The translations under genes and the position numbers were made by a program. From an uncultured Hungatella sp. (GTDB lineage Bacteria; Bacillota; Clostridia; Lachnospirales; Lachnospiraceae), in NCBI GenBank assembly GCA_947089145.1, contig CAMUJH010000048.1, positions 1 through 33,436 of the forward strand: a stretch of DNA of 33,436 nt, written 5' to 3'. Below the pieces are notes generated by a model that worked only from the letters and a program-made list of their open reading frames with translations, had not been told where the DNA came from and did not search any database. Positions 11,778 to 33,275 of the stretch are shown here, piece by piece; position 1 is the stretch's first letter, and each line of letters starts with the position of its first letter.

Positions 11778-11957
11778 CAATGTCATTTAGTTAAGGTTGC
11801 TGCAGGCCCCAAGGGCTCCATCTCCTGCCAGGGTTCAGAATTGCCAAACGTTCCGAAGAGCCCGAAAAACAGGTCTCTTCTCCTTGGCATTAATTCACCC
11901 TGACAGGAGATGGAGCCCTTGGGGCCAAAGCAGAATCCGCTTAACTAAATGACATTG
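11778..11957 (+). mobile_element. Palindromic MITE-like / structured-RNA element, copy 1
   Basis: 180 bp, no coding capacity. Perfect 18-bp terminal inverted repeats are at 11778-11795 and 11940-11957. Inside is a long stem (11805-11833 with 11898-11926, one mismatch), then TGCCAA/TTGGCA (11842-11847/11884-11889), then GAAGAG/CTCTTC (11855-11860/11875-11880) closing on an A-rich loop. It is flanked by GTTCACTGC direct repeats. Copy 2 at about 33084-33275 conserves the loop sequence and the fold, with compensatory changes in the stems. It could be a non-autonomous transposable element, a structured RNA, or both. I recognise no known Rfam-type motif. Confidence 0.75.
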
Positions 11958-11966
11958 GTTCACTGC
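11958..11966. repeat. Right flanking direct repeat (target-site duplication)
   Basis: GTTCACTGC, identical to 11769-11777 and abutting the right terminal inverted repeat. Confidence 0.7.
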
Positions 11967-12117
11967 ACGTAATGACAGCGAACCAGGCCGACCACCGCTG
12001 CGGGCGATTTTAAATGGCGGTGTGGGTTACAGTCTGCTGGGCACCAGTGAACTGTAATGTTTGGAATAAAATTTCCATGATTTGGGTAAAATTAGGATAG
12101 TAAATTCATGGAAAAGG

Positions 12118-12150
12118 TGGTATAATGTCCATATAGGCAATGGACATTAT
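12118..12150 (+). promoter_or_regulatory. Extended -10 promoter overlapped by an operator-like palindrome
   Basis: TGG-TATAAT (12118-12126) forms an extended -10. An 11-bp perfect inverted repeat, ATAATGTCCAT (12122-12132) with ATGGACATTAT (12140-12150), begins within the -10 and covers the start point, suggesting a repressor site. A second repeat (TTTCCATGA and TCATGGAAA) lies just upstream between about 12072 and 12114. The regulator is unknown. Confidence 0.55.
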
Positions 12151-12199
12151 AGAAAGAACAGAGGCCGAAAAGGATAACCAGGAAAGGAAGGATCGGACA

Positions 12200-12508
12200 A
12201 TGAATAAATTAGACATCATGGGCAAGGACGCCATGAATCGCATGGAGGATATTATGAACTCCACAAGACTCAATGAATTCCTCCACAGAAAAGAAGAAGA
12301 GGACAAGAAGAAAAACAATATCCTGTGGGCTCTTGCCATTATCGGAGCCGTAGCTGCCATCGCAGCCATCGCATATGCCGTGTATCGTTTCTTCACACCG
12401 GACTATCTGGAAGATTTTGAGGACGATTTTGACGATGACTTTGACGATGATTTTTTTGAGGACGAGTCGGACTCAGAAAAAGAGGAGAAGAAAGACACGG
12501 AGGAATAG
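12200..12508 (+). CDS. Small single-pass membrane protein with acidic tail
   Basis: 102 residues from ATG 12200, preceded by an AGGAAGGA-type site. Layout: a charged helical N-terminus (residues 1-40, with Glu/Lys-rich LHRKEEEDKKK), one hydrophobic segment (about 41-62, LWALAIIGAVAAIAAIAYAV), then a tail of Asp/Glu/Phe repeats (EDDFDDDFDDDF) and a Glu/Lys end. The topology is probably tail-out or tail-in single pass; it cannot be decided from sequence. I do not recognise a functionally characterised family. It is monocistronic between a palindrome-covered promoter and a strong terminator, so it looks individually regulated. Confidence 0.75.
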   Translation: MNKLDIMGKDAMNRMEDIMNSTRLNEFLHRKEEEDKKKNNILWALAIIGAVAAIAAIAYAVYRFFTPDYLEDFEDDFDDDFDDDFFEDESDSEKEEKKDTEE

Positions 12509-12531
12509 GCCAACAATATAAAGGAAACATC

Positions 12532-12564
12532 AAAGGGATATTGCACAGGCAATGTCCCTTTTTT
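12532..12564 (+). terminator. Rho-independent terminator after the small membrane protein
   Basis: AAAGGGATATTGC (12532-12544) pairs with GCAATGTCCCTTT (from 12549) with one mismatch and a 4-base loop, followed by a run of T. Confidence 0.88.
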
Positions 12565-12619
12565 AGACAATGATTTTAAAGGTGCAGAACCTTTGTTCTG
12601 ACAGAAAGGAATCCCGGAC

Positions 12620-14260
12620 ATGAAAAAAGGACAAGTTTATACAGGTATCGTGGACAGAATGGAATTTCCCAACAGAGGAGTGGTCTACATAGACAATGAA
12701 AAGGCGGTTGTAAAAAACGGGCTTCCGGGACAGGAGATCACATTTGCCGTAAATAAAAAGAGAAACGGAAAATGCGAGGGCCGGCTTTTAAAGGTGGAGA
12801 GGGAGTCGCCCCTGGAGACGGAGAAAAACAGATGCCCTCACTTTGGAACCTGCGGCGGCTGCCTTATGCAGAGCATTCCTTACGGGGAGCAGGTTCGCAT
12901 TAAAAGAGAGCAGATGAAGGCCCTGATCGGGGAGGTGGAGGTAAAGCCAAGCCCTATATGGGAGGAGTACCGCAATAAGATGGAATTTTCCTTTGGAGAT
13001 GAGGAAAAGGGAGGCCCCTTAGCTTTGGGGATGCACCGGAGAGGAAGCTTCCACGATGTGGTCAATGCGGATGGCTGCCGGATCGTGCATCCGGACTTCA
13101 CCCGGATTCTTATTGCTGCCAGAACGTATTTCGGGGAAAAGGGGATTCCTTTTTATAGAAAGCTGAGGCATGAGGGATACCTGCGCCATCTGTTGGTGCG
13201 CAGGGCAGTGAAGACCGGGGAAATACTGGCGGCTTTGGTTGTTTCCGGGCAGACAGAATGCCTGGAAGAACTGGGAATCAAAGAGGAGGCTTTGCTTAAG
13301 GGGTGGAGGGACTGCCTTCTGGCTCTTCCTTTAGAGGGGAAATTTGCGGGTATTCTGCACATCCGAAACAACAGTCTGGCGGATGTGGTGCAAAGCGACA
13401 AAACCAGTATCCTGTACGGCCAGGATTATTTTTATGAGGATCTTCTTGGACTCCGGTTTAAAATTTCACCGTTTTCTTTTTTTCAGACCAACTCCTTAGG
13501 GGCGGAGGTGCTGTATGGCCTGGTGCGGGAATATGTGGGGGATACCGAAGGAAAGGTGATTTTTGACCTTTACAGCGGGACAGGAACCATTGCCCAGGTG
13601 CTGGCTCCTGTTGCGAAGAAGGTGGTAGGCGTGGAGATCGTGGAAGAGGCGGTGGAGGCAGCAAAAGAGAATGCTGCCAGAAACGGCCTTGAAAACTGCC
13701 AGTTTATTGCCGGCGACGTGATGAAAGTGGTGGGAGATCTGGATGTGAGGCCGGATCTGATTGTACTGGACCCTCCCAGAGACGGAATTCACCCTAAGGC
13801 ATTGGAGAAAATTATGGGTTTTGGGGTGGAGAAGATCGTGTATATTTCCTGCAAGCCTACCAGCTTGGTGCGGGATCTGGAGACGATTTTGGCGAGCGGA
13901 TATGAGGTGGAGAGGGCTTGCTGCGTGGATATGTTTCCGTCTACGGGGAATATAGAGTCGGTATGTTTATTGTCCAAACTTCATTCAGGTCAACATATCG
14001 AGGTTGAGCTTCAGATGGACGAGCTTGATTTGACGGCTGCGGAGAGCAAGGCAACCTATGAGGAAATCAAGGATTATGTGTTGGAGCATAGTGGACTAAA
14101 GGTAAGTAATCTTTATATTGCACAGATAAAGCAGAAGTGTGGTATAATTGAGAGGGTGAATTATAATCTGCCGAAATCGGAAAATTCCAGACAGCCGAAA
14201 TGCCCGCCAGAGAAAGAAGCAGCTATAAGGGAAGCGTTGGAGCATTTTCGTATGATTTGA
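12620..14260 (+). CDS. rlmD: 23S rRNA (uracil-5-)-methyltransferase RlmD with island-derived C-terminus
   Basis: 546 residues. N-terminal TRAM-like domain, then the Fe-S cysteine cluster CPHFGTCGGC (about 72-81), the RNA-binding central region, SPFSFFQTNS, the SAM motif FDLYSGTGTIAQVL, the catalytic-loop DPPRDG and the nucleophile Cys in VYISCKPTSLVRDL. It methylates a uridine of 23S rRNA to m5U. The catalytic core ends near residue 455 (CLLSKLHSG). The remaining about 91 residues (from MDELDLTAAESKATYEEIKD on) lie downstream of the left 30-bp direct repeat, so they are encoded by the inserted island. The insertion thus replaced the native 3' end without truncating the enzyme. All catalytic motifs are present; activity is probably retained. 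Confidence 0.92.
   Translation: MKKGQVYTGIVDRMEFPNRGVVYIDNEKAVVKNGLPGQEITFAVNKKRNGKCEGRLLKVERESPLETEKNRCPHFGTCGGCLMQSIPYGEQVRIKREQMKALIGEVEVKPSPIWEEYRNKMEFSFGDEEKGGPLALGMHRRGSFHDVVNADGCRIVHPDFTRILIAARTYFGEKGIPFYRKLRHEGYLRHLLVRRAVKTGEILAALVVSGQTECLEELGIKEEALLKGWRDCLLALPLEGKFAGILHIRNNSLADVVQSDKTSILYGQDYFYEDLLGLRFKISPFSFFQTNSLGAEVLYGLVREYVGDTEGKVIFDLYSGTGTIAQVLAPVAKKVVGVEIVEEAVEAAKENAARNGLENCQFIAGDVMKVVGDLDVRPDLIVLDPPRDGIHPKALEKIMGFGVEKIVYISCKPTSLVRDLETILASGYEVERACCVDMFPSTGNIESVCLLSKLHSGQHIEVELQMDELDLTAAESKATYEEIKDYVLEHSGLKVSNLYIAQIKQKCGIIERVNYNLPKSENSRQPKCPPEKEAAIREALEHFRMI
13955..13984. repeat. attL-like 30-bp direct repeat in rlmD
   Basis: Thirty bases, starting GAGTCGGTATG and ending AAACTTCAT, occur identically at 17921-17950. 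About 27 bp further upstream the two copies are also alignable but diverged (both begin GATATGTTT). This is the pattern of an integration core inside a conserved 3' gene end. Confidence 0.85.
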
Positions 14261-14396
14261 GGGTAGCTTAGAATTAAAATTTCAGTTAAAAAGTGATACA
14301 AATACCATTCAAATGTGCTATTATTGAAATATTAGAATATATGATATAGAATAACAAAAATTGGATAACAGCCATATAAAATATTGAGGGAATAAG

Positions 14397-16130
14397 ATGA
14401 TAGAAATCCATGATGAGTTGCTATTAAAAGAAATAATAAGCTTTTGCGAGAGTATAAAAGATGAAGAAGAATTAAAAAGGCTTCAGGAAAATAATAAAGA
14501 GCTGCCTTTTCACCCACTTGATCCTGAAGTGAAAAATCAACTTGATACATTAAAGAAAAAGGGAACTATAAAAAGAGATGGAGAAAAACCAATTATTGAG
14601 CTATCATATGAGATGAATGGAGAAATTGACAAATTATGGAATATGCTAATAGAGAAAGCTATAATTTGTCTGCGCTACTTTGACAAAAGAAAGCCGTTTA
14701 TGCAGAATGGAAAACAACCATATGTATATGGACTTGATTCTTTGGAAGATTATCATAAAAAGTATATCGATTTTGAAGGTGTTTTGTATGGGAGTGATGC
14801 ATATTATCGGGATCATGTTTTTCATGTGATTCGAGTATGGTTGCTAGGAGTGTATTTGCTACTAAATGATAATACATATATTACTAATGGAGGTAAACGC
14901 CTAGTTGATGCTATACATTTTGAGGGTGATAGCGAAATGACAGTATGTTGTATTGATAAAAGTGAAATAGACAATAATTATCTGGAAAAGCTCAATGAAA
15001 ATAGTATTTTTATTAATAAGAATGGAAAGTCATATAAGATTCATAAAGACAAGACCGATGGTCATAATTATGTATTGACTCCATCAAATAGTTTTAGTAG
15101 TGAAATAAATATTCTCGAAAAAATAAGTATGTGGACCTTGATGGCTTTATGTCATGATCTGGGATATCCTCTTGAAAAATCGAAGAAAATTTTAACAAAA
15201 ACCGAAAATATGATGGAGGCATTTGTATCGTAACTCAAAATAAATGGTGATTTGAGATTTGATGGAACAAGGGATTCTAATAATAAAGACATTATACTTT
15301 TTACAAGTAAAAAAATGAAAGCTATAGATGATGATGGTGAAATAGCAACATATAAAGCAAGTGTTCAAGAAAAATATAAATTTAAATATATGCTTTCATT
15401 AGAGGCTTTTGCACACGGTGTAATTAGTTCTATAATAATATATAAAAAACTGAATTACTTCAAAGAAACGGATAATAATTCGGATGCTAATTATATATTC
15501 CAAGAGGAAGATGCGCGACAATTCTATATCAGGAGGGATATTCTAAGGGCTATGGCATCGCATACATGTCAAGATATTTATCATATAGATGTTGCAACTT
15601 TTCCTATGTTGCTTTTTGTGTGTGATGAATTGCAGGAATGGGGAAGAAAGTCATGGAAAAGTATGTATAAAGGTGTGACCAACAATGCTGTACGATTATC
15701 TATAGAAACTTTTAATTCAGATAAAATTGAGTATGAAGAAGAAATAGACATGTCTAATGCAGGGAATCAGCAATTAGTGGATAATATTGAACGTATCTTA
15801 AGCCATCAATATATGTTATATCAAACTACATTTAGAGATGGCCAGTACACAGCAAGGAGAAAATTTGATTTTAAGAAACATATTCATATAAAAATTAGTG
15901 AAGAATATAAAAGTATAAAACAAATTGACATTGATTTTAGTATTAATCATGGTTCGGATGATAATACGTTTTTATTATCAATTAGAAATTCAGGTAATAC
16001 TGACAAAGGTAAAAAGTCAAAGGTAAAATATCTGACGGAATCTTTATCGGAACTGTTAAAGCCCTATATAGAAAATCGAAAATATGGTGTATGTGAAATG
16101 AAAGATGATAGAGAGGAAGTAAAAGAATGA
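14397..16130 (+). pseudogene. HD-domain phosphohydrolase-like gene interrupted by an in-frame TAA
   Basis: One frame of 578 codons broken only by TAA at 15231-15233 (codon 279). The HD metal ligands are spread over both halves: YRDHVFH (H140), CHDLGYP (H253, D254), AFAHG (H340), ASHT (H389) and CDELQEW (D410). This is the order expected for an HD phosphohydrolase, so the two pieces were one protein. The upstream piece alone keeps the core HD pair but not the later ligands. HD enzymes of this kind usually hydrolyse nucleotides or phosphomonoesters. The 3' end overlaps the radical SAM start by 4 bases (ATGA), so they form one operon. Specific function unknown. Confidence 0.75.
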
Positions 16131-17090
16131 AGCAAATTTCTATAGAAATAATACATAAATGTCCTAATAAGTGTCTCCATTGCTTTTCTTATTCTGATAT
16201 AACTCGGACGATGAAGCTTAGTACAGATAAAATTCTTAGCATAATAGACAGTGCTAAAGAACTAAATACAGAAATAATAAGTATATCTGGAGGCGAACCT
16301 TTTTTGCATGAAGGGCTAGTAGAAATTGTTCAGTATGCTAAAATGCAGGGAATAAAGATATATATATACGAGCGGTATAATAATAGTGCATGCAGACCAA
16401 GCTTGCAATATAAATGTTGAGACACTTAAACTTATTAAAAACGCTGGTGTCGATAAAATAATATTTGATTTACCAGCTATTGATGAGCAAATTTATGATG
16501 AATTTATGGGAACAAAAGGCTATCAACATTATGCTTTGGAAAGTATCCGTTTATGTAAGAATTTGGGGATTTTTACGGAAATTCATTTTGTACCTACGAA
16601 AATTAATGTTGGTCAAATTGATGATATATTGGATTTTGCTGAAAGGGAAAATCTAGATATTGTTAGTTTTTTAGGATTAATTCCGCATGGGAGAGCAAAT
16701 GAGTATAGAAAGAGACTATATTTAGATACATTTGAAAATACTCAGTTAAAGTATAAATTGCATAAGTTGAAAAGTTCAAGTGTGCGAGTGGGTATTCCGC
16801 TACAATATGAGGACAACGAATATAGATGTTATGCGGGAAGAACAAAATTATGTATTAGGTATGATGGGAAGGTTTTTGGCTGCGAAGCATTTAAATATGT
16901 TCAGCTATATGATGATGATGGTGATGTTATATATCCTGATTCAATTTATGAAAGAGATTTAGTTGATATATATTATAATTCTGTCTATTTAAAAAGAGAA
17001 AGAATATATGTTGAAGAACAAATGTGTGAAGGTAATTGCCAAGAAAAATGTCCTGTTCAGAGAATGATGAGGAAAGTTGCAGGTTTATAA
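16127..17090 (+). pseudogene. Radical SAM protein with SPASM-like C-terminus, frameshifted
   Basis: The N-terminal frame (to 16420) has the CX3CX2C cluster motif HKCPNKCLHC (Cys 12, 16, 19) and the SAM-binding GGEP in ISISGGEPFLHEG. The C-terminal frame (from about 16360 to 17090) continues with YTSGI and ends with extra cysteines (RCYAGRTKLC, GCEAF, CEGNCQEKC), resembling an auxiliary-cluster SPASM/Twitch region. The break lies in the TA-repeat around 16355-16370, a plausible slippage site. Such enzymes install radical modifications on peptides, tRNA or nucleotides. It overlaps the HD gene by 4 bases and is followed 5 bases later by the DUF2284 gene. Confidence 0.8.
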
Positions 17091-17095
17091 AAGAT

Positions 17096-17737
17096 ATGGA
17101 ACAAAAGATTTTTACCCAGTATAAGAAAGCACTGAAAAATAGAACTATTGATATTATTTGTAGAGGCATTCTGATAAAGGATGTCTCTATTTTAAATAAA
17201 TATTATGAGAAAGAATCTATTAAAAGAGCTTGTGAAGAAGGCTGCCCTAATTATGGAAAAAAATGGAGCTGTCCTCCATTTTCAAAACCTTAGTATGAAT
17301 TAATGGACGGATATAACGAAGCAGCTCTGATAAGTTTTTCTGTAAATATGAATAGCTATGTGGAGATAAAAAATAAATATACTGCAATGAAAGCAGCAAA
17401 TGTAACTTTAAAAAATCTTATAGAAAAAGTAGCGCGAAAAGTTGAAATGGAGACAAAAGGATATGCCTTACTAAGTGGAAGTTGCAGATATTGTAGACCA
17501 TGTGCATGCAAAACAAATCAAAAATGTAAGCACCCAGATAAAATGCGTTATAGCATAGAGGCAACATATTTAAATGTACAAGCACTATGTGAAGAATTGT
17601 TAGGTTTTGAACTTTTATGGTATGAAAAGAAGATATTACCTAAATATACAAGCACGGTTTCGTTGATTTTTTTTAATGAGAATTTTGTGAAAGAGGCAAT
17701 GATGGAAATTATAAAAGATGTGATTGAAAATTATTGA
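17096..17737 (+). pseudogene. DUF2284 predicted metal-binding protein, interrupted by an in-frame TAG
   Basis: 214 codons from ATG 17096, broken by TAG at 17291-17293 (codon 66). The frame continues without shift to a TGA at 17735-17737. The family's cysteine pattern spans both sides: CEEGCPNYGKKWSCPPF before the stop and SCRYCRPCACKTNQKC after it. This is typical of DUF2284 proteins, which are thought to bind metal or Fe-S. Whether the amber is a mutation or read through cannot be judged here; nearby genes also carry nonsense codons, so mutation is simpler. It is the last gene of the HD-radical SAM operon. Confidence 0.75.
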
Positions 17738-17920
17738 AATATAACTGTATAGTGAGTTGGTGCATAAATATTTATATGTATACCAAATGGGAGAAAGTGG
17801 ATATTACTCATATTTTTTGCGTTAAAGGAAGTAGATTATATGAGAAGAACTTTCATCGTAATAGTATTGTCTAAATTTATGTGATTTTGTAAAGATATGT
17901 TTGGACATAGGGAGTACGAA
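17738..17920. other. AT-rich island tail, no gene
   Basis: No supported ORF or clear hairpin terminator. It separates the DUF2284 stop codon from the right direct repeat. Confidence 0.4.
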
Positions 17921-17950
17921 GAGTCGGTATGTTTATTGTCCAAACTTCAT
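17921..17950. repeat. attR-like 30-bp direct repeat
   Basis: Identical to 13955-13984. The surrounding frame from about 17895 reads DMFGHREYEESVCLL..., then a stop about 6 residues after the repeat. This matches the end of an RlmD-like protein, so it is probably the displaced native (or donor) 3' end of rlmD. Confidence 0.85.
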
Positions 17951-18229
17951 GCAGACCTTGAGTAAAGTTATCAGTGGTGTCGACTTTGATGTTAAATTCG
18001 GGGATAAAGTTTGTGTGATGATGGACTTCTCTGGTACAGGTAAGACTTTCTTATTGAAGACGTTAAGGTCTTGTATGGTTCTTAAGAATGTGCCTTGTTT
18101 ATATGTATCTCTAGTAAATATGCAGGATTTGGTATTGCTCCTGATGATTTAGGGGCGTTGATACTTAAGAAGCCTTATGTAGTGTTACTTGACAATGCAA
18201 GTTTTTATTACATAGTCTTGTGGAACTGA
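17948..18229 (+). pseudogene. Relic of a P-loop ATPase from a mobile element
   Basis: The first frame (ATG at 17948) carries ISGVDFDVKFGDKV and a Walker A motif in MDFSGTGKTFLLK. After about 18110 the homology moves to another frame, with APDDLGALILKKPYVVLLDN, a Walker B-like strand ending in Asp. The gene is therefore frameshifted, and it stops at 18229. The style resembles small ATPase ORFs carried by integrative conjugative elements of Clostridia; I cannot assign a name. It begins inside the right end of the attR-like repeat, suggesting that a second element once abutted this site. Confidence 0.5.
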
Positions 18230-18333
18230 AAAACCAGCTCATACAGCAGGGCAGATATACGGACTGCGTTGACGAACTGATATTTAAAGTTGTAAAGGCA
18301 CCCGTTAAGAGAATGAAAATTGAATATGTCTAA
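18193..18333 (+). pseudogene. C-terminal fragment of an unidentified element gene
   Basis: An open stretch with no start codon that ends at TAA 18331-18333. The residues VELKNQLIQQGRYTDCVDEL and the basic end KAPVKRMKIEYV look like a genuine protein C-terminus. It is in a different frame from the ATPase relic it overlaps. No family assigned with confidence. It is followed by a terminator. Confidence 0.4.
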
Positions 18334-18347
18334 GGCACATCATTATG

Positions 18348-18392
18348 AAGCCACTTATTCTTATTGATTTTTTAAGAGTAAGCGGCTTTTTT
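18348..18392 (+). terminator. Rho-independent terminator in the relic region
   Basis: A 15-bp imperfect stem beginning AAGCCACTTA (18348) and closing TAAGCGGCTT (to about 18388), with one mismatch and one wobble, followed by six T. Confidence 0.7.
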
Positions 18393-18441
18393 GCATTCTC
18401 TGCTACTCTTACATAGCCACTCTGACAAAGTGGCTAAATCT

Positions 18442-18684
18442 ATGCGAAAGGAGGAACCAATTGTACAGCTTGAAACCGCAAAAAAGGAAGTGAAGAAGCC
18501 GTTTGCCTTTGAAAACGAGCTGAAAGAAAAGACGGAACGGCTGAACGCATTCAATATTAAATTGAATCTCAATGAAAAAGACAACTCCGTGATTGATGAT
18601 GAGCCAAAGCAGAATGGCAAGCAGCCAGAGAAAAAATGCACGGACAGGGAGCGGTTAATCCAGTTTGCACATTTGTACTGCTGA
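18442..18684 (+). pseudogene. C-terminal fragment of a large conjugative-element protein
   Basis: From ATG 18442 the frame encodes 80 residues, including KKEVKKPFAFENELKEKT and LNLNEKDNSVIDDEP. To me this resembles the extreme C-terminus of the very large helicase/methylase-type proteins of clostridial integrative conjugative elements. The start is preceded by other reading, so it is a truncated tail rather than a complete gene. The identification is from memory of the family and is tentative. Confidence 0.45.
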
Positions 18685-18709
18685 GTTTGAGGTATTATAA
18701 TAAGGACGA

Positions 18710-18910
18710 ATGTCTGATGCGTTCAGGTTTGAAACCTTTGTAGATGTCCACGGCAATGTCTTTAATGAATACCTTGGCTCTGTCGTAGCAAAGCTGTCCA
18801 GAGAAAACGAGGAATACCGTGCCGTGTGAGCCGAGATTGAGGGCTTGTATGAAAAATATCCGAAAGTCTTAGACATGTTTGACACGGAAACAGCGGAAGA
18901 ACTGACCTAG
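18710..18910 (+). pseudogene. Small mobile-element protein with two nonsense codons
   Basis: ATG 18710 after a weak TAAGGA site. The frame reads FVDVHGNVFNEYLG... to TGA 18827-18829, continues in the same frame (AEIEGLYEKYPKVLDMFD) and stops at TAG 18908-18910. The first stop is at a position where CGA (Arg) would give RAVRAEIE; the second is where CAG would extend the protein. Both would be C-to-T changes. It resembles small conserved ORFs next to relaxase genes in clostridial elements. Function unknown. Confidence 0.5.
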
Positions 18911-19228
18911 AAAAAGGCAGTATCAGCATACCAGAATTGATTGACTGGCTTGGTATTCAGACAGTAGACTGGGGAGTTAATGGACAAAATGAGATGATTG
19001 CGATTGAAACAAAGCTTTCTAATATTATTTTAAAGGAAAGCAATCCTAAGATAGAAATATATTTTATTGATAGGCCATATTACGGATGTTTTAGATATTC
19101 GTCTTGACATTCAAGATCAAGATTTAAAATGCAGGTTGTATATCAATGTAGATTTTTCATATAATTTGAGAACTATAACAGCAACTGACAGACCTCGTAC
19201 TAAGTTAAAAAGTGTAGAAGAAATTTAG
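18911..19228 (+). pseudogene. Unidentified frameshifted 3' gene fragment
   Basis: One frame is open from about 18911 to 19107 (with IPELIDWLGIQTVDWGVNG), and another from about 19070 to TAG 19226-19228 (DVLDIRLDIQDQDLKCRLYI). The second looks like the continuation of the first after a frameshift near 19080. The composition is AT-rich like the island. No family recognised. Confidence 0.35.
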
Positions 19229-19259
19229 ATACGTATGAAGAACAGGAGGCGGAAAACAG

Positions 19260-19502
19260 TGACACTGTTACAAGAAGCGTATACACTCATGCAAGGGCAG
19301 TCGGAGCGGAATGCTCGGCTTGATTGTGGATCTTCTCCGGATAATGTCACCAAAAGAGGAAGCGGTGGATGTGACGTCGTCTAAGGTTTTTAGACGGACT
19401 GACCTTGCGAGAAATGCGGTGAACTTGCCGGGTGATTTTGATGAGATCTTTGATGCGCTGGACAAGGATATTGAAGAACTGTTTTACGAAGACACCTTAT
19501 GA
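19260..19502 (+). pseudogene. Antitoxin of the PIN toxin, frameshifted
   Basis: The GTG at about 19258-19260, after AGGAGG, starts LLQEAYTLMQGQSERNARL. The rest (IVDLLRIMSP, VFRRTDLARNAVNLPGDF, DIEELFYEDTL) lies one frame over, reaching TGA at 19502. A single-base change near 19317-19322 would join them into an approximately 80-residue protein of the size and context of antitoxins that precede COG3744-like PIN toxins. The stop overlaps the toxin ATG. As drawn, no complete antitoxin is encoded unless the downstream ATG at 19311 suffices. Confidence 0.55.
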
Positions 19503-19900
19503 AATACGTTTTAGATTCCCATATTTTGATTTGGGCGTTGTTTGCCGATGAAAAGCTGCTCCGGCAAGCTTGTGCGATCATCAACAATCGGAAAAACGAG
19601 ATTTATTACAGCGCCGCTTCTGTCTGGAAAATTGGAATCAAGCATAGCAAATCTCAGAAAAAAATGCCGATTTCCGGTGGGCTGTTAGCTGAGAGCTGCG
19701 ACATGGCAGACATGTTGTCCCTGCCAATTACAAAAGAGCATGCCCTGGCGGCAGGGCTCAGACGTGGGGAAAACACGCCGCCCCATAAAGCCCCATTCGA
19801 TAAAATACTTATCGCCCAGGCTAAAAGTGAGGGCATGGTTTTTCTGACATACGATCATTTGCTGGAAGGTTATGAGGAAGATTGCGTCAGGACGGTATGA
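19499..19900 (+). CDS. PIN-domain toxin (VapC-like, COG3744 type)
   Basis: 133 residues, overlapping the antitoxin stop by 4 bases (ATGA). The fold signature is clear: N-terminal LDSHILIWALF with the first catalytic Asp, SAASVWKIGIKHS in the middle, APFDKILIAQAKSEGMVFLTYD with the C-terminal acidic residues. PIN toxins are Mg-dependent ribonucleases held in check by their antitoxin. The second conserved acidic position, normally Glu in S(V/L)WEIxIK, is Lys here, which would remove a metal ligand. Together with the broken antitoxin, this suggests a toxin that was inactivated and tolerated. Confidence 0.8.
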   Translation: MKYVLDSHILIWALFADEKLLRQACAIINNRKNEIYYSAASVWKIGIKHSKSQKKMPISGGLLAESCDMADMLSLPITKEHALAAGLRRGENTPPHKAPFDKILIAQAKSEGMVFLTYDHLLEGYEEDCVRTV

Positions 19901-20091
19901 AGTCTCCTGACTGTGGACAACTAAACGGTTAAATAGAAAAAATGGCGCATTGTGTAAAATCATCATCGTTTGCCGCTTTTATCAGAAATCTTCGATAACT
20001 TTTGTAATCAGAAAATTACCAACAGCACCATGTTTTCGTAGATTGCCATGGAACCGGATCAGGAATTGCCGGAGATCACGAAGTGAAACGC
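19901..20091. other. Intergenic region with possible coding debris
   Basis: No supported gene. A short stretch around 20038-20085 reads like protein (DCHGTGSGIAGDHEVK), but it has no start codon and no recognisable family. It may be debris. Confidence 0.3.
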
Positions 20092-20133
20092 CGTTTACAA
20101 AAACCAGCGTTACACTATCCGGATTTGTAAACG
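20092..20133. promoter_or_regulatory. GCGTTTACAAA-type palindrome, copy A
   Basis: CGTTTACAAA (20092-20101) and TTTGTAAACG (20124-20133) form an inverted repeat of 42 bp overall. It is the same span and the same 25-bp-like distance to the -35 box as copy B at 29379-29420, and the flanking DNA is also similar. Likely an operator or activator site shared by the EIIB-like gene and the GH1 gene. Confidence 0.65.
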
Positions 20134-20157
20134 CTGTTTCGGAATCTTCCGGAAATA

Positions 20158-20186
20158 TTGAAAAAAACTTTCACATTTGGTTTAAT
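20158..20186 (+). promoter_or_regulatory. Promoter of the EIIB-like pseudogene
   Basis: TTGAAA (20158-20163), 17-bp spacer, TTTAAT (20181-20186). Its counterpart at 29445-29473 has the same hexamers and spacing. Confidence 0.7.
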
Positions 20187-24846: not shown

Positions 24847-24883
24847 CGATATCATGCATATTTAACAATCCCTCCTGGTTCTG

Positions 24884-24892
24884 TGGTATATT
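24884..24892 (+). promoter_or_regulatory. Extended -10 promoter of the second PTS operon
   Basis: TGG-TATATT, 34 bp upstream of the EIIC start and 40 bp downstream of the hairpin's T-run. Confidence 0.5.
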
Positions 24893-24926
24893 GCCAATCA
24901 GAAAAAATACATGAGGAGGGTTACAT

Positions 24927-26225
24927 ATGAATCAACTATCAAACGCACTGATGAAAGTCGGCAAGTGGGCGGATAAGAACGAGTATTTAAACGCGGTGAA
25001 GGAAGCGTTCCAGATGTTTATTCCATTTACCATCATCGGCGCCATGGGGACTTTGTGGACATCGGTTCTGTGCAATGCCAACACGGGATTGGGGAGCATC
25101 TTTCCTCCCATTATGGCTCTGTCTTTTTTGAATCCCGCTTTTAACGCGGTGAACTTTTGCACCATCGGCTACATCGGATTGGGCATCACGGTTCTGGTGG
25201 GAGCACTCCTTGGGTCTTCAAAAGGCCATGACCCCATCTACTGCGGGCTGCTGTCCCTTTTGTGCCTGGCCGGGGTATCTCAGTCCTCCATGGACGTGGC
25301 GGCAGCGGACGGCACGGTAATTGAAACCATCAAGGGGATTTTCAACAGCAATCTGGGAAGTACGGGCATTTTCACAGGTATTATCGTGGCCATATGTTCC
25401 GTAGAGCTGTTTAACACGATTATGAAGATCGACGCCCTGCGGATTAAAATGCCGGACAAGGTGCCTGGCAGCGTGGCCAAGTCATTTTCCTCCCTGGTTC
25501 CCGGTTTTCTGGTAATCCTGATTATGGGACTTATCAGCCTGGTTATTTACACGGTGATCGGCGGTTACCTTAATGACTTTATTTATAACCTGATCCAGGC
25601 GCCGCTTTTGAGGCTTGGTTCTTCCCTTCCTGGAATTTTGGTATTCGTTCTCATCGCCGTAATGCTGTGGTCTGTGGGCCTTCATGGGGAGAACATGATC
25701 AACGGCGTACTGAATCCCATCCTCATCAGCCTTATGGTGGAAAATACGGAGGCCGTGGAAGCAGACGGAGCTACCATGAATATCATCAATTTTTCCTTTT
25801 ACCGTACTTTTTTATGTACCGGAGGCACGGGCATGGTGCTGGCGCTGACCATCGCATTTCTGATTACAGGAAAAAGGGAGGAGAACCGGTCCATTGCAAA
25901 ACTGTCGCTGGTATCTAATTTGTTTAATATCGGAGAAGTGTGCATGTTCGGATATCCGGTGGTACTGAACCCCATACTCATTATCCCGTTTATCGCTTCT
26001 TCACTGGCAAGCATTATCATGGGCTATGTGCTGACGGCAATCCATATCTGTCCCATTATGTATGTCAATATGCCGTGGACCATGCCGCCGTTTTTGCTGG
26101 GGTTCCTTGCTTCCGGCGGAAACATCATGGGAGGCGTGTGCCAGCTGATTGCACTGGCCGTATCAACCCTTATTTATCTGCCATTTGTAAAGTTATATGA
26201 GAAACAGCAGGCGGCGGCCGAATAA
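24927..26225 (+). CDS. PTS EIIC component, lactose/cellobiose family
   Basis: 432 residues, AGGAGGG upstream. It begins with the amphipathic helix and EYLNAVKEAFQMFIPFTIIG, then about ten membrane segments. The substrate-site signature reads FNIGEVCMFGYPVVLNP where the family usually has FNxNEPxxFGxPxxxNP; the catalytic Glu is kept but the Asn and Pro positions differ. A later WTMPP matches the conserved Trp-Thr-x-Pro-Pro. The differences suggest a non-standard substrate. It is the first gene of an operon with a UPF0303 protein, two oxidoreductases, an EIIB and probably GH1. Confidence 0.93.
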   Translation: MNQLSNALMKVGKWADKNEYLNAVKEAFQMFIPFTIIGAMGTLWTSVLCNANTGLGSIFPPIMALSFLNPAFNAVNFCTIGYIGLGITVLVGALLGSSKGHDPIYCGLLSLLCLAGVSQSSMDVAAADGTVIETIKGIFNSNLGSTGIFTGIIVAICSVELFNTIMKIDALRIKMPDKVPGSVAKSFSSLVPGFLVILIMGLISLVIYTVIGGYLNDFIYNLIQAPLLRLGSSLPGILVFVLIAVMLWSVGLHGENMINGVLNPILISLMVENTEAVEADGATMNIINFSFYRTFLCTGGTGMVLALTIAFLITGKREENRSIAKLSLVSNLFNIGEVCMFGYPVVLNPILIIPFIASSLASIIMGYVLTAIHICPIMYVNMPWTMPPFLLGFLASGGNIMGGVCQLIALAVSTLIYLPFVKLYEKQQAAAE

Positions 26226-26259
26226 AAAATAATTTGTGACACGGAAAGGGGAAAGGGAC

Positions 26260-26760
26260 ATGATTGAATCGGAGAAAAAGACAAAGGAATCCGCGCCGGG
26301 ACAAAAAACGCTGGAACTGGAAAAATATCTGCAATTTAAGGAGTTTTCCCATGAGGACGCAAGGCGGACGGCGGAAAAAATCTTTGAGGGGTATGAGCGG
26401 CTGGTAGCGGGCAGGGAGATTAAGAAAGCCATCGGCGTGCGTGTCGTGGTGGACGGGCTTTTGGTGTATCAGTATTTGATGGACGGAAAGAAAGAGGATG
26501 GGTGGCTGAAGCGCAAGGAAAACATGGTGTGGGAATTTGGGCACAGCTCCATGTACATACGGGAGGTCAATGACATTACCCATGAGTACGATCATCTGAA
26601 GGAGGATGAGAACCTGGCAATCTGCGGAGGCGGCTTCCCCATTACCATTGAGGGGGAGATAAGGGGGACTGTCGCGGTGTCCGGCCTGGCCCATGAGGAA
26701 GACCACGGCCTGATTGTGGGAGCGTTAAAAATATTAAAGGAAGAGGGAAAATTAAAATGA
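26260..26760 (+). CDS. UPF0303 / heme-degrading-domain (HbpS/GlcG-like) protein
   Basis: 166 residues from ATG 26260; a GTG at 26236 is in frame, but the purine-rich GGAAAGGGG sits better for the ATG. The fold signature is KAIGVRVVVDGLLVYQYLMDG, then ICGGGFPITIEGEIRGTVAVSGLAHEEDHGLIV. This is the glycine-rich loop and Ser-Gly-Leu motif of the DUF336/UPF0303 group. Members accompany sugar and glycolate operons, and some bind heme or cobalamin; the role here is unknown. Its stop overlaps the next gene's ATG by 4 bases. Confidence 0.82.
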   Translation: MIESEKKTKESAPGQKTLELEKYLQFKEFSHEDARRTAEKIFEGYERLVAGREIKKAIGVRVVVDGLLVYQYLMDGKKEDGWLKRKENMVWEFGHSSMYIREVNDITHEYDHLKEDENLAICGGGFPITIEGEIRGTVAVSGLAHEEDHGLIVGALKILKEEGKLK

Positions 26761-27736
26761 GAGTTGGGATTTTGGGAAGGGGATGATTGTAAAATCGCTG
26801 ATGCAGACCATAGGGAAACTAAATTTTTCTTATACGGCTTTGCTGGGAACAAGGGAAACGGAGGAGGAAACCAGGGCCATGTGCCAGGAGAACGGGCTGG
26901 ACGCTTATTTTCTGGATTATGACGAGCTTCTGGAAAGTGACGTGGATACTGTCTATGTGGCTCTGCCCAATCATCTTCACGCCGCTTTTTCGAAAAAGGC
27001 CCTGGTTCATGACAAGCATGTAATTATCGAAAAGCCGGTTACCTCCAATGCCGCCCAGCTTCGGGAGCTGATGGGAATTGCCCAGGAGCATAAGAAGATG
27101 ATTTTTGAAGCCATGAACATCCATTACCTTCCGGCATACGGCTCTATTAAGGAGAACCTGGCCCAGGCGGGGACGCTGAAAGTTGTAAGCCTCAACTACA
27201 GCCAGTATTCCTCCCGCTATGACGCGTTCAGGCAGGGCCAGGTTCTGGCGGCGTTTGACCCGAAACGGGCAGGAGGCGCCCTGATGGATCTGAACGTGTA
27301 CAACGTTCATGCAGTGGTGGGGCTTTTCGGAAAGCCGAAGAAAGTGGCTTATGAGGCCAATGTGGAGCGGGATATTGATACCAGCGGGATTTTGACCCTG
27401 GACTACGGTGATTTTAAGGTGTCCGCCATTGCGGCCAAGGACTGCAATGCCCCGGTGCGGTGTACCATTCAGGGGACAAACGGGTGTTTTGTGATTCCTA
27501 AGCCGGTAAACCAGATGGACAGCTATGAACTGCTGTTAAATAACGGGGAGACGAAAGAGTACAAGCTGGAGAATCCGGAGCATCGGCTGTATTATGAGTT
27601 TGTGGAGTTTGGGAGGATGATTGACCAGGAAGACTGGGCAAAGCAGAAGGAGATGCTTGAAGTCAGCCTGACGGTGGCGGAGATTCTGGAAGAGGCCAGG
27701 AAGCAGAACGGGATTTTCACGGATTTTGAGGTTTGA
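26757..27736 (+). pseudogene. Gfo/Idh/MocA oxidoreductase, N-terminal frameshift
   Basis: The expected start, ATG 26757, gives MRVGILGRG and then a TGA at 26784-26786. Downstream the frame runs from ATG 26783 for 317 residues: MIVKSLMQTIGKL, YVALPNHLHAAF, and the conserved IIEKPVTSN (the EKP lysine). One base, most simply a C within GGAAGGGG at about 26775-26782, would restore GTGMIVK, completing the GxGxxx NAD-binding turn. Without it, only a protein lacking the first Rossmann strand could start at 26783, with GGAAGGGG abutting its ATG. The family oxidises sugars or their phosphates with NAD(P). Possibly a sequencing error; check reads. Confidence 0.75.
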
Positions 27737-27796
27737 TGGCAGTGGGTTTAAGGTGGGGATAAACGATAAAGGTTATCATGAAAGGAAAATGGAGAT

Positions 27797-28117
27797 ATGA
27801 TTAAAATAAGGTTGTTTTGCGCGGCAGGAATGTCCACAGGCATTCTGGTGGAGAGGATGATAAAGTCCGCCCGGGAAAGAGGGCTGGAGGCAGATATCGC
27901 GGCGGCTCCCGCAGCCGCCATGGAAGAAGAAACCCAAGGGATTGACGTGGCTTTTCTTGGACCCCAGGTAAGGTATAAGCTGGATGAGGCTAAAAAGATA
28001 TGCGGGGAAAAGAAGATTCCTGTGGAGGTGATTCCTATGGTGGATTACGGCACCATGAACGGGAAAAATGTGCTGGATTTCGCTTTGCGGTTATCCGGCC
28101 GTGAGGAGCAGCAGTAA
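27797..28117 (+). CDS. PTS EIIB component, lactose/cellobiose family
   Basis: 106 residues. The phosphorylatable Cys is in LFCAAGMSTGILVERM at residue 8, followed by the usual IDVAFLGPQVRYKLDEAK and a C-terminal MVDYGTMNG. It passes phosphate from EIIA to the sugar on EIIC. It fits the EIIC at 24927 in the same operon; no EIIA gene is visible in the window. Confidence 0.93.
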   Translation: MIKIRLFCAAGMSTGILVERMIKSARERGLEADIAAAPAAAMEEETQGIDVAFLGPQVRYKLDEAKKICGEKKIPVEVIPMVDYGTMNGKNVLDFALRLSGREEQQ

Positions 28118-28161
28118 CACAGGCGGCAATTCGGAAAGAAAAATCAAGAGGAGGAAATGGA

Positions 28162-29190
28162 ATGAGCAAGGAAATGGTAATCGCATATATAGGGAACGGA
28201 AAAAGCGCCAATCGCTATCATATTCCTTTTGTACTGACAAGGAAGGACAAGATACGGATTAAAAAGATATTTACCCCGAACCATGAAAAAGACCCATGGA
28301 AGGAGATACCGGGAGTGGAGTATGTGGAAGATATGAATGAGATTTTGAAGGATGAGGAGATTCAGGTGGTGATTCTCTCCACTCCTCACAGCACCCACTA
28401 TTCCTTAGCAAAGCAGGTTCTCATGGCCGGGAAGAACTGTGTTTCGGAGAAGCCTTTTACCGAAACAAAGGCCCAGGCAAAGGAGTTGTTCGCCCTGGCA
28501 AAGGAAAAGGGGCTGATGATGCAGTGTTATCAGAACCGCAGGTTTGACAGCGACTTTTTGACGGCCATTAAAGTGATGGAAAGCGGGAAAATCGGGGATG
28601 TGACGGAGATGGAGATTAGTTTTGACTACTACCGTCCGGAAGTTCCTCAGGGAAGAAAGTTTGAACCTTTTACCAGCTTTCTCTACGGCCATGCGTGCCA
28701 TACCCTGGACCAGGTGATTTCCTATTTTGGAAAGCCGGACTGGGTGCAGGCGGATGTAAGGCAGCTTTTGGGCGAGGGGTGCATGAACGATTATTTTGAC
28801 GTGGATTTGTTTTATGGGCACCGTTTGAAGGCTACAGTGAAATCCAGCTATTTTCGGGCCAAGGCCCGTCCGTCCATGACCGTGTACGGCATGAAAGGCA
28901 TGTATGTTAAGGAAGTAAAGGATAAGCAGGAGGAGCATCTGAAGATGTTCGTCATGCCCGGGGAGCCTGGATTCGGGGAGGATAAGCCGTCGGAGTACGG
29001 AACGCTGATTTACTATGATGACCAGGGGATTTACCATGAGGAAAAGGTGCCTACCATCACAGGGGATTATGCCCGGTATTATGACGCCCTTTACGAAACC
29101 ATCATGAACGGGAAGGAGCAGTTGGTTAAGCCTGAGGAAACCATTGCTCAGATTGAGATTATGGAGAATGCCATTAAGGGATTAAAATAG
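28162..29190 (+). CDS. Gfo/Idh/MocA family oxidoreductase
   Basis: 342 residues, AGGAGG upstream of the ATG. The N-terminal Rossmann turn reads IAYIGNGKSANRYHIPFVL, as in the YdgJ/YhhX branch. The conserved lysine motif is CVSEKPFTET (about residue 95), and the C-terminal alpha/beta domain includes GHACHTLDQVISYFG. These enzymes use NAD(P) to oxidise or reduce a sugar hydroxyl. Next to an EIIB and a 6-phospho-beta-glucosidase it may act on a phosphoglycoside or the released sugar phosphate; that is inferred. Intact, unlike its paralogue at 26757. Confidence 0.92.
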   Translation: MSKEMVIAYIGNGKSANRYHIPFVLTRKDKIRIKKIFTPNHEKDPWKEIPGVEYVEDMNEILKDEEIQVVILSTPHSTHYSLAKQVLMAGKNCVSEKPFTETKAQAKELFALAKEKGLMMQCYQNRRFDSDFLTAIKVMESGKIGDVTEMEISFDYYRPEVPQGRKFEPFTSFLYGHACHTLDQVISYFGKPDWVQADVRQLLGEGCMNDYFDVDLFYGHRLKATVKSSYFRAKARPSMTVYGMKGMYVKEVKDKQEEHLKMFVMPGEPGFGEDKPSEYGTLIYYDDQGIYHEEKVPTITGDYARYYDALYETIMNGKEQLVKPEETIAQIEIMENAIKGLK

Positions 29191-29322
29191 CATACCCTTT
29201 GAGGTATACCATAATACATGCCCTTCGGGCGGATGCGCTCCTGTGCGAAAAGGTATACCCTTTGGGGCATACCGTAATGCATGCCCTTCGGGCGGACGCG
29301 CTCCTGCGCAAAAAGGTATAGT
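29191..29322. repeat. Tandem 63-bp repeat (two units)
   Basis: Period 63 bp (ATACCC at 29192 and again at 29255). Each unit holds ATACCCTTTGRGG, a GCCCTTCGGGC hairpin (UUCG tetraloop) and a GCGCTCCTGYGC hairpin; the second unit ends in AAAAAGGTATA. The units differ at about ten positions. No ORF. Possibly a terminator array after the oxidoreductase or a structured 5' region before GH1. Confidence 0.65.
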
Positions 29323-29330
29323 TATTTTTC

Positions 29331-29421
29331 AACGCCATTTACAGGTTTCTTTCCGCAGGGAAGGGGATTTGCAAATGGCGTTTACAAAAATCGGCTTTAC
29401 TTTAGCCGGATTTGTAAACGC
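29331..29421. promoter_or_regulatory. Overlapping palindromes upstream of GH1 (includes copy B operator)
   Basis: Three arms: AACGCCATTTAC (29331-29342), GCAAATGGCGTT (29371-29382), and a GCGTTTACAAA / TTTGTAAACGC pair (29378-29388 and 29411-29421). The middle arm overlaps both pairings, so the upstream and downstream hairpins exclude each other in part. The downstream pair matches copy A at 20092-20133. Confidence 0.6.
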
Positions 29422-29428
29422 TGTTTAG

Positions 29429-30949
<1,521 letters not shown>

Positions 30950-30991
30950 GGAAAGCATAATCCGAAAGAAACATAGACAGGAAGGACAGGC

Positions 30992-31615
30992 ATGAGCATT
31001 GGGGAAGAGATAAAGAGATGGCAGGAGGTTGAATGCGTGGAAACCATGGAGCGGGGCGGGTTTAAGGCCGGAGACAGGATCGTGGATTTTGGCTGCGGCA
31101 TTGGGAACTACACGTTTCCTTTATCCAGGGTGGTGCGGGAAAACGGGGAAGTCTATGCCGTGGACGTGGACCGGTATGTGCTGGAGAAGATCAGGGGGAG
31201 GGCAGAGAGGGCGGATATTCATAACATCCGCCTGATGCAGCCGGAACGAAACGGGCGGCTGGGGTTTAAGGACGGTTTTGTGGACGGGATACTCATATAT
31301 GACCTGATTCATTCCCTGGACAGGAGGGAGCAGATTATCGGGGAATGCCGCCGGATATTGAAAAACGGGGGCATACTCTCAATCCTGCCGTTCCATATGT
31401 CCGGAAGCCAGATTGGGGGGCTGATGGATGCTATAGAAGGGCTTGGGTTCAAGCTGGACAACGTCCAGAGAGCCGGAGGGCTCCATTTTGAGATGCACCG
31501 ATATCTGGGCAGGGGGTGGGAACGCTTAAAGGACTATGAGAGGGGCGACATCTATAATTTAAAGAAGGTGGCCGCCAGGGGCATGGAAAGCCAGAAGAAA
31601 GCCGCAGGGCGGTAA
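30992..31615 (+). CDS. Class I SAM-dependent methyltransferase
   Basis: 207 residues, AGGAAGGAC upstream. SAM motif I is DFGCGIGNYTFPL, and the acidic end of beta-2 is VYAVDVDRYVLEKI. The later motif VDGILIYDLIHSL and a C-terminal RILKNGGILSILPFHMSG complete a UbiE-type fold. The substrate is unknown. It lies between GH1 and the MATE exporter and could belong to their transcript. Confidence 0.88.
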   Translation: MSIGEEIKRWQEVECVETMERGGFKAGDRIVDFGCGIGNYTFPLSRVVRENGEVYAVDVDRYVLEKIRGRAERADIHNIRLMQPERNGRLGFKDGFVDGILIYDLIHSLDRREQIIGECRRILKNGGILSILPFHMSGSQIGGLMDAIEGLGFKLDNVQRAGGLHFEMHRYLGRGWERLKDYERGDIYNLKKVAARGMESQKKAAGR

Positions 31616-31636
31616 GTGAAAAGTGGGTAAGAAAAG

Positions 31637-32983
31637 ATGAAAGATGAACGTATGAAAACAGGGGCTCCCGGAAGGCTTTTAATCGAACTTTCCATTCCGG
31701 CCATCTGTGCGCAGATTGTTACTCTTTTATATAATACGGTGGACCGGGTGTATATCGGAAGAATGGCTGACGGGACCATGGCCATGGCGGGCATCGGCGT
31801 ATGTATGCCTATTACCATGGTATTATCAGGATTGTCATCCTTGTTTGGCCGGGGCGGTGCTCCCCTGGCGGCTATCAGCCTGGGGAAAGAAGACAAGGAA
31901 GAGGCGGAGCTGTTTTTGGGGAACAGCTTTCTTGGCCTCATCATTACCTCGCTTTTGGTCATGGCGGGCACCCTGGCATTTAAGGAGCCTTTGCTGGCCA
32001 TGTTCGGAGCTACGGCCAATACCATGGCCTATGCCATGGACTATCTGACCATCTATCTGTACGGGACGTTATTTGTACAGATTACGGTTGGGATGAATTA
32101 TTTTATTACCACCCAGGGGTTTGCAAAGACTGCCATGGCAACCACGATGCTGGGAGCGTTTTTAAATATTATCCTTGACCCCATTTTTATGTTTCGGATG
32201 AACATGGGAATTAAGGGAGCCGCCCTGGCCACGGTGGTATCCCAGTTGATATCCTGCATCTTTGTGCTTCAGTTTTTGCTGGGAAAGAATACAAAGCTGC
32301 GGCTGGGGATGAAAACCATGAAGCTAAAAAAAGATGTCCTTACCAGGGTTTTGGTTCTTGGGGCTTCCCCGTTTTTTATGACCACTTCGGAAGGGGTCAT
32401 GCATATCTGCTTTAATATGCAGGTGCTGAAATATGGAGGAGATATTGCTGTGGGCGCCATGACCATCTTGTTTTCCATGTTCCAGTTTATCAATCTGCCT
32501 TTAATGGGCATCTCCCAGGGGTCTCAGCCCATTGTAAGTTTTAATTACGGGGCCGGGGAGTATGGAAGGGTGAGGAAGACTCTGCGGTATGCCATTATTG
32601 CCTGCACCGCTTTCTCGCTGTGGGGCACCACCCTTATGCTGCTGTTCCCGTCTTTTTTTATCCGGCTGTTTAATACGGACCCGGAGCTTGTAAGCCTGGG
32701 GGCGGGGATGCTGCGGGTCTACATATCCGGTTGCTTCTTTATCGGCGCCAACAGTTTGTACCAGCAGACCTACACCTCTATGGGGGAGGGGAAAATGTCA
32801 TTTTTCTTTGCTTTTTTCAGAAAAGTGATTCTTTTGATTCCCCTTCTGTATATTTTGCCGGCGGTTTTCCCGTGGGGAGTTTTTGCGGTGGCATTGGCGG
32901 AGCCTGTATCGGATCTTTTGACAACGCTGTGTAATAAGCTTTATTTTAACAGATTTATGAAGAAAAAGTTAAGCGTTTCCTGA
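31637..32983 (+). CDS. MATE family efflux transporter
   Basis: 448 residues with twelve hydrophobic helices in two halves. The N-terminal region RLLIELSIPAICAQIVTLLY and VYIGRMADGTMAMAGIGV, then GFAKTAMATTMLGAFLNIILDPIF, are typical of the DinF/NorM group. The second half holds GISQGSQPIVSFNYGAGEYGRV. It exports cationic or metabolite compounds with Na+ or H+. Substrate unknown. Confidence 0.93.
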   Translation: MKDERMKTGAPGRLLIELSIPAICAQIVTLLYNTVDRVYIGRMADGTMAMAGIGVCMPITMVLSGLSSLFGRGGAPLAAISLGKEDKEEAELFLGNSFLGLIITSLLVMAGTLAFKEPLLAMFGATANTMAYAMDYLTIYLYGTLFVQITVGMNYFITTQGFAKTAMATTMLGAFLNIILDPIFMFRMNMGIKGAALATVVSQLISCIFVLQFLLGKNTKLRLGMKTMKLKKDVLTRVLVLGASPFFMTTSEGVMHICFNMQVLKYGGDIAVGAMTILFSMFQFINLPLMGISQGSQPIVSFNYGAGEYGRVRKTLRYAIIACTAFSLWGTTLMLLFPSFFIRLFNTDPELVSLGAGMLRVYISGCFFIGANSLYQQTYTSMGEGKMSFFFAFFRKVILLIPLLYILPAVFPWGVFAVALAEPVSDLLTTLCNKLYFNRFMKKKLSVS

Positions 32984-33083
32984 TAAACGGAGGGATTTAT
33001 CTATGCTGCTGTCACAACTCAGCTATACAAAAAAAGCTTGTGTTTACAATAAAATTCAACCTCTTTGAGGGGAAACATGCTGT

Positions 33084-33275
33084 TTAGCTGAGTAAAGTTA
33101 AGGCGATGTTGCTGCAGGGTCCGAGAGAAGCCATGTCCTGTCAGGGTTCAGGTTTGCCAAACGTTCCGAAAAGCCCCAAAAAGCGGGTCTTTTCTCCACG
33201 GCAAAATTCACCCTGACAGGACATGGCTTCTCTTGGGCAAAATCAGAATTCGCCGGCTTAAATATAGCTTGGCTG
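33084..33275 (+). mobile_element. Palindromic element, copy 2
   Basis: Same fold and orientation as 11778-11957. Main stem 33119-33147 with 33210-33238 (29 bp, two G-T wobbles), then TTTGCC/GGCAAA (33153-33158/33200-33205), then GAAAAG/CTTTTC (33168-33173/33189-33194) closing the A-rich loop. Outer arms pair less well than in copy 1, mostly through wobbles. No flanking direct repeat found. No ORF. Confidence 0.7.

Follow-up and report, generated by a model that had tools for sequence, protein, structure and literature searches.

The window analysed here is a stretch of 33,436 bp from an uncultured Hungatella sp. (assembly GCA_947089145.1, contig CAMUJH010000048.1), and is contig C48 of a 127-contig, 4.46-Mb genome (G000) that is 87% complete. 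It contains two long palindromes, which had been described from the letters alone in an earlier account (the sequence-only reading), and both were found to be present and to fold. Copy 1 is a near-perfect palindrome of 180 bp at exactly 11778-11957; its site comes after a PcrA/UvrD-like helicase gene (Pfam), and no open reading frame (ORF) of 80 aa overlaps it. Folded with its flanks, copy 1 gave one long hairpin of -117.6 kcal/mol (z -13.25 against 200 shuffles). Copy 2, within 33080-33285, folded in the same manner (-100.9, z -10.89); its arms are imperfect outside 33108-33253, and the ends of copy 1 are absent from it. Our analysis indicates that both palindromes are probably copies of a mobile non-coding hairpin module of Lachnospiraceae, and that the covariation of the stem probably arose mainly from arm-to-arm copying of DNA.

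Copy 1 is flanked on both sides by GTTCACTGC, a 9-bp duplication, and the termini of its class are CAATGTCATTTAGTTAAG and its complement. With up to three mismatches allowed, this end pattern matched the genome of the window 61 times, against 5 times for a reversed control; single truncated ends are numerous, and copies without a core also exist (L032 and L078). Target duplications were tested in 16 of the 18 IS4-type end pairs found among the collected loci, and a strong direct repeat of 8-10 bp was found to abut the ends in 12 of these 16 two-ended elements (mean 0.13 and maximum 1 in 2000 shuffles). A full element was found in the congener G006 (locus L297, contig C29), where 1,713 bp lie between CAATGTCATTTAGATAAG.. 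and ..CTTAACTTAATGACATTG, each end agreeing with copy 1 at 17 of 18 positions. This element, placed at the start of its contig, is intact and encodes a 463-aa transposase matching NF033592, the NCBIfam IS4 model (138 bits, cut-off 115), as well as Pfam DDE_Tnp_1. The site of copy 1 was found without a hairpin in G002, G006 and G025, while G004 has a hairpin there that is not necessarily the same insertion. Because of the 9-bp duplication, the ends that each differ by one base from those of the IS4-family element, and the site that is empty in three congeners, we conclude that copy 1 is a miniature inverted-repeat transposable element (MITE) of an IS4-family element. It consists of a single module between IS4-type ends, presumably moved in trans by an IS4-family transposase with target duplications of 9-10 bp. 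At another locus of the genome of the window (L069), the 1,452 bp between two IS4-type ends contained no ORF of more than 174 aa and none that was transposase-like by eye. A separate repeat of about 100 bp was observed at 11965-12062 of the window, with copy 1 standing in or beside it; the matches listed for it (79-87% identity) fall at 9 sites in G004 and at 5 in G006.

Copy 2 forms the left half of a unit of two hairpins; a spacer follows it, and then the second hairpin, which is broken by the contig end. Contig C79 carries the last 55 bases of the window as its bases 2-56, contig C65 opens with the last 42, and both of these contigs contain the second hairpin whole. The assembly probably branches at this terminal hairpin. 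At 33382-33436 the contig stops inside the hairpin that opens C79 and C65, and a similar hairpin ends C91.

Complete units of this kind in congeners consist of two inverted hairpins with inward tails, the stems of which differed in the units compared. Their outer ends are dissimilar: CC immediately precedes 45 of 50 left ends, the right ends share a tip, and small end hairpins can be seen. Scored as for the MITEs, target duplications were found in 0 of 15 units with both ends. Among 11 close pairs from pattern-scan loci, nine were oriented (+,-), one (+,+), one (-,-) and none (-,+). In L145, L148 and L159 the two hairpins enclose a Y1_Tnp (IS200-type) gene or remnant, and in L176 such a sequence stands next to one hairpin. 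L145 and L148 agree at 81% over 475 bp of their interiors, L176 resembles L145 at 67% over 464 bp, and L141, which lacks tnpA, has both interior ends in common with L145 and L148. Judged by these resemblances, the four loci would look like an autonomous element and its shortened derivatives. The half unit in the window has no Y1 transposase in it. With movers assigned from ends and neighbours, copy 2 is read as the left one of two inverted modules in a unit of the kind that in congeners has IS200/IS605-like outer ends and in some cases a Y1 gene or its remains. A composite of both kinds of carrier was observed at L292 (260-1057), a 797-bp two-hairpin unit with IS4-type ends and its own target duplication; modules therefore pass between carriers.

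Comparison of copies 1 and 2 (two rows of alignment A1) revealed six stem differences matched by the complementary change on the other arm, in columns 9, 10, 12, 13, 14 and 19; these are the six compensated differences of the sequence-only reading, with its positions shifted by one. Transversions make up three of the six. The remaining differences had been taken to be mostly G-U compatible, which is correct for copy 2 (two wobble pairs, with one A-C type mismatch in copy 1) but does not hold in general, as the larger counts below show. Since the copies in A1 were found by similarity, the controls outweigh the raw numbers. In 19 copies from the genome of the window, 98.4% of cells pair, versus 40-45% when the partner is slid by 1-3 columns; two-sided change was found in 27 of 43 pairs (shuffled mean 13.3), and the covariation score of 0.422, compared with 0.117 for shuffled data, was reached in 0 of 500 shuffles. 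A wider set, mostly from this genus, comprised 149 of 161 hairpins (12 with short paired paths were dropped) and was analysed at stem positions 14-35 alone. In this 22-bp stretch, 97.75% of 3,246 pairs were Watson-Crick; there were 73 distinct arms, and different arms averaged 47% identity, versus 86% for the core ends. The basal stem of the module is about 25 bp, while paired stems in other genera reach about 130 positions. One copy in G339 (L355, C36:58388-58522) has a stem of 87 paired positions versus 37-38 in two other copies of that genome, one of which reaches 95 under looser settings.

On an RNA strand a G-U pair is kept and an A-C pair is not, and selection on RNA should thus leave more G-U than A-C. 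The 149 hairpins had 16 G-U and 22 A-C (p 0.42), and counting from stem position 11 on gave 24 and 39. In 48 hairpins of other genera (52 loci entered, four without a hairpin and eight with a paired path of 0-3 nt) there were 43 and 33 (p 0.30); the counts were not added because some hairpins are in both sets. Tolerance of wobbles but not of A-C, as expected of a functional RNA, is therefore seen neither in the first set (16 vs 22) nor in the second (43 vs 33). Among 19 MITE copies, 32 cells had changed in both arms versus 6 expected under arm independence, an expectation that ignores shared descent; the 32 cells represent 16 distinct position-and-type changes, some of them shared by descent. 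Transversions account for 9 of these 16 (classified by hand from the list), and the single changes comprised 34 G-U, 37 A-C and 33 others.

The core of the module, about 70 nt, is asymmetric, with two internal loops and an apical hairpin. Summarised from the alignments, its plus strand reads YTCAG..YGCC-RRACATTCC-GATGAGCC-(apical hairpin)-GGTCTCATC-TCCAT-GGCR..ATTC. The core helices covary across genera, with 9 of 14 pairs changed on both sides and a score of 0.357 versus 0.149 for shuffled data (0 of 500 shuffles as high), and the internal loops are almost invariant. For these two reasons the core looks recognised, and a recognised structure in the loop is likely. The features of the two copies are listed in the table.

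Features of the two palindromes in the window
Feature	Position	Strand	Basis
Left target-site duplication, GTTCACTGC	11769..11777		sequence; abutting-repeat test
Left terminal inverted repeat of copy 1, CAATGTCATTTAGTTAAG	11778..11795	+	pattern counts; one base off each end of the IS4-family element
Hypervariable basal stem of copy 1, 5′ arm	11806..11830	+	A1 columns 3-27
Conserved core of copy 1, GGGTTCAG..TGCCAAACGTTCC..apical hairpin..TTCTCC..GGCA..TTCACCC	11831..11900	+	core alignment and covariation
Hypervariable basal stem of copy 1, 3′ arm	11901..11925	+	A1 columns 100-124
Right terminal inverted repeat of copy 1	11940..11957	-	pattern counts
Right target-site duplication, GTTCACTGC	11958..11966		sequence; abutting-repeat test
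Small hairpin CCTC-TTT-GAGG close to copy 2 on its outer side, which may belong to the left end of the unit (CCGG-ATAAA-CCGG in relatives)	33060..33070		sequence; left ends of relatives; inference
Hypervariable basal stem of copy 2, 5′ arm	33119..33143	+	A1
Conserved core of copy 2	33144..33213	+	A1
Hypervariable basal stem of copy 2, 3′ arm	33214..33238	+	A1
Conserved tail AAAATCAGAATTCGC.., toward the inside of the two-hairpin unit	33239..33255	+	A1; layout of related units
Start of the second, inverted hairpin of the unit of copy 2, broken by the contig end	33405..33436	-	sequence; contig comparison

The sequence-only reading had proposed a search with a covariance model and a comparison with Rfam, and both were carried out. 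BLAST with copy 1 together with covariance model R1 located about 42 distinct places in the genome of the window (weakest E 1e-3, counted from the match list), and further carriers were found in Lachnospiraceae. Within the genus, 8 of 26 genomes had matches, with 121 in G006, 66 in G000, 63 in G004, 26 in G025, 10 in G024, 2 each in G002 and G003 and 1 in G005; these are not copy numbers, as palindromes match on both strands. Six genomes besides that of the window matched at E 1e-6 in a family sample of 397. With a second model, R2, built on the core (alignment A2, 22 sequences), 12 genomes matched among 392 from the order and 3 among 391 from the class, the window's own included and all within one family, which we take to be Lachnospiraceae; absences in these large searches are soft because at most 8 candidates were scored per genome. 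A scan of named genomes with the core pattern had Hungatella sp. and "Clostridiaceae bacterium" MGBC000181 among the matches listed. Rfam gave no match to the element, either for the window at gathering score or for the surroundings of copy 1 and nine related loci at permissive E-values. A mir-5408 match on the opposite strand (35 bits, gathering 90) was read as a generic long hairpin. A role of the stem as an antisense guide to another gene found no support, as BLAST of copy 1 against its own genome (E <=10) gave, judging by coordinates, copies and fragments of the element. Nothing on the element was found in the literature searched, and we make no wider claim that it is unpublished.

To account for a stem that changes on both sides, we propose that formation of the hairpin during DNA replication allows template switching between the arms, whereby a mutation in one arm would be copied into the other at the DNA level. 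The stem could then drift freely in sequence and yet stay paired, while the core would be held by recognition of some kind. If the arms switch templates in this way, the paired changes would be explained without selection on RNA. According to a study of rRNA genes, hairpins can be made, and their pairing restored, by template switching in replication; transition types accounted for 61.0% of instantaneous compensations, and 78.5% of two-step ones involved G-U pairs (PMC8794818). The hairpin family fits a template-switching account better than stepwise evolution of an RNA, and given the lack of a G-U excess over A-C and the frequent paired transversions, arm copying in DNA is the likelier cause.

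Several observations weigh against this proposal or against parts of it. Arm copying was not seen as an event with a known ancestor, and a similar mark would be expected from selection for folding of a DNA strand. The shared descent of some double changes and the softness of the absences have been mentioned above. In number of pair types the core did not exceed shuffles (16 versus 15.0; 195 of 500 shuffles reached that number), although it did so in the four other measures, and the figure of 28 (+,-) among 31 close pairs is not unbiased, since it derives from 20 regions chosen because inverted pairs already showed in most of them. An intact IS4-family transposase of the L297 type was not found by protein search in the genome of the window, the sole match, in an assembly that is 87% complete, being a stretch of 36% identity. 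As for the two-hairpin units, the outer ends of copy 2 itself showed no clear match to the IS200-like ends of its relatives, and no hairpin was found in the 2.2-2.5 kb scanned around each of the three Y1_Tnp matches of its genome. The intact tnpA of L159 has relatives at 80-82% that stand without hairpins nearby, and L159 may therefore be a nested insertion. In six other carrier genomes, Y1_Tnp matches numbered 0 in five and amounted to a broken fragment in one, in a search that did not cover IS4-type transposases; Y1 as a general mover was rejected for this reason. In addition, draft assemblies break at these repeats.

The first alternative is selection on the folded DNA strand: a mover (Y1/HUH or other) would act on single-stranded hairpins, and well-paired copies alone would spread, in the manner of REP sequences or integron attC sites. 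The Y1 genes and remnants between some hairpin pairs, as well as the conserved core on a free stem, agree with this, and IS200/IS605 enzymes are reported to bind hairpins that are subterminal in single-stranded DNA (PMC6006769). However, known Y1 end hairpins are about 20-25 nt (PMC6006769), the Y1_Tnp match is absent from five of the six carrier genomes, and double changes reach five times expectation in the MITE copies, which moved with IS4-type ends. We regard it as unlikely.

Another alternative, that the hairpins are transcribed as a functional structured RNA in which selection keeps the stem paired, was favoured by the sequence-only reading, according to which selection is on pairing and the wobbles point to RNA. 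The strong covariation of stem and core and the conservation of the internal loops across genera speak for it, as does the curation of TwoAYGGAY, a family alike in habit, as an RNA. That inference nevertheless did not stand: G-U is not in excess of A-C, paired transversions, which have no wobble route, are common, and arms of at least 100 bp are nearly perfect yet different between paralogues, beyond what an RNA helix would seem to need. The copies are moreover dispersed and polymorphic, with target duplications, and a functional RNA is in our view improbable. The other possibility raised in the same reading, a hairpin-DNA mobile element, was supported by the dispersed copies, their target duplications, the near-IS4 ends, the empty sites in congeners and the Y1 genes or remnants between related hairpin pairs. 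It is very improbable that every insertion builds a fresh stem from flanking DNA through inverted duplication, so that stems would not be inherited. Six copies in G121 (L341, L352, L362 and L374-L376) suggest it, as they score 0.86 identity in the core but have stems with almost no relation to one another (4 of 15 arm pairs exceed the shuffled 95% level). Other genomes do not support it: arms were related above that level in 6 of 6 pairs (G722), 11 of 15 (G222) and 15 of 28 (G738/G544), and in the window's genus the inheritance of stems is clear, their differences being compensated changes.

Arm-to-arm copying in a mobile hairpin, if correct, would be a caution on the way in which structured RNAs are identified. 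Compensatory change is commonly held to be the best evidence for a functional RNA, and mobile hairpins may mimic RNA covariation. In its many natural copies the module keeps its pairing with no sign of selection at the RNA level, which makes the alternative measurable through single-arm changes, wobble versus A-C, and transitions versus transversions. The hairpin repeats also suggest a reason for the breaks in draft assemblies of these genomes.

Among known families, TwoAYGGAY (RF01731) is similar in having a conserved core and a long, variable, nearly perfect stem that extends beyond the Rfam model. It differs in its core, a multiloop that carries two AYGGAY-looped hairpins, whereas the core described here has two internal loops and one apical hairpin. 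The RF01731 covariance model found no match in the window at gathering score or around copy 1 at E <=10, and TwoAYGGAY gave no match in nine genomes of the window's genus tested or in G132, G222 and G256. It matched 53 times in G339, 8 times in G405 and once in G121, being multicopy in two genomes (G339 and G405; loci L319-L335), with three opposite-facing close pairs in the G339 list, and was found 61 bp from the present element in G405 and 188 bp from it in G339 (two other genera). Its stem was analysed in 18 of the 61 matches listed for G339 and G405. The paired stretch, starting at most 25 nt from the model ends, covered 52-148 positions in 17 copies and 22 in one, and comprised 1,450 Watson-Crick pairs, 42 G-U, 33 A-C and 102 other or gapped, in which a G-U excess is not clear. 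The publication of TwoAYGGAY presents it as a candidate RNA found in human gut, gamma-proteobacteria and Clostridiales (PMC2864571). By analogy, we infer that it and the present element may be mobile hairpins of one habit, with no homology implied, which gives a first lead on this orphan Rfam family as a possible mobile hairpin. More tentatively, the two could be members of a single superfamily of giant mobile hairpins, found in Lachnospiraceae and their relatives, with a factor-recognised core and a stem rewritten arm from arm via a single-stranded hairpin intermediate at each move. Were this somewhat doubtful extension true, part of the covariation behind accepting families such as TwoAYGGAY as RNAs would be a product of DNA replication.

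The two-hairpin units of congeners resemble IS200/IS605 and REP/REPIN in having Y1 genes or remnants between hairpin pairs, unlike outer ends, a fixed dinucleotide before the left end and no target duplication. Unlike in IS200/IS605, the large hairpins (about 140-180 nt) are internal and added to small end hairpins; REP is a palindrome of 20-40 bp, in contrast to 140-180 nt here, and L159 scored 26 bits against REP_Tyr_transpos, the NCBIfam REP-associated transposase (cut-off 80). IS4-family MITEs, of which MIC231 of Bacillus cereus is an example, are closest to copy 1: the elements are short and non-coding, with IS4-family ends (one base off each) and target duplications of 9-10 bp, those of the IS4 family being about 9-13 bp. 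Copy 1 is distinguished from them by its interior, which is one near-perfect palindrome with a conserved loop core and is related to a module that other elements also carry.

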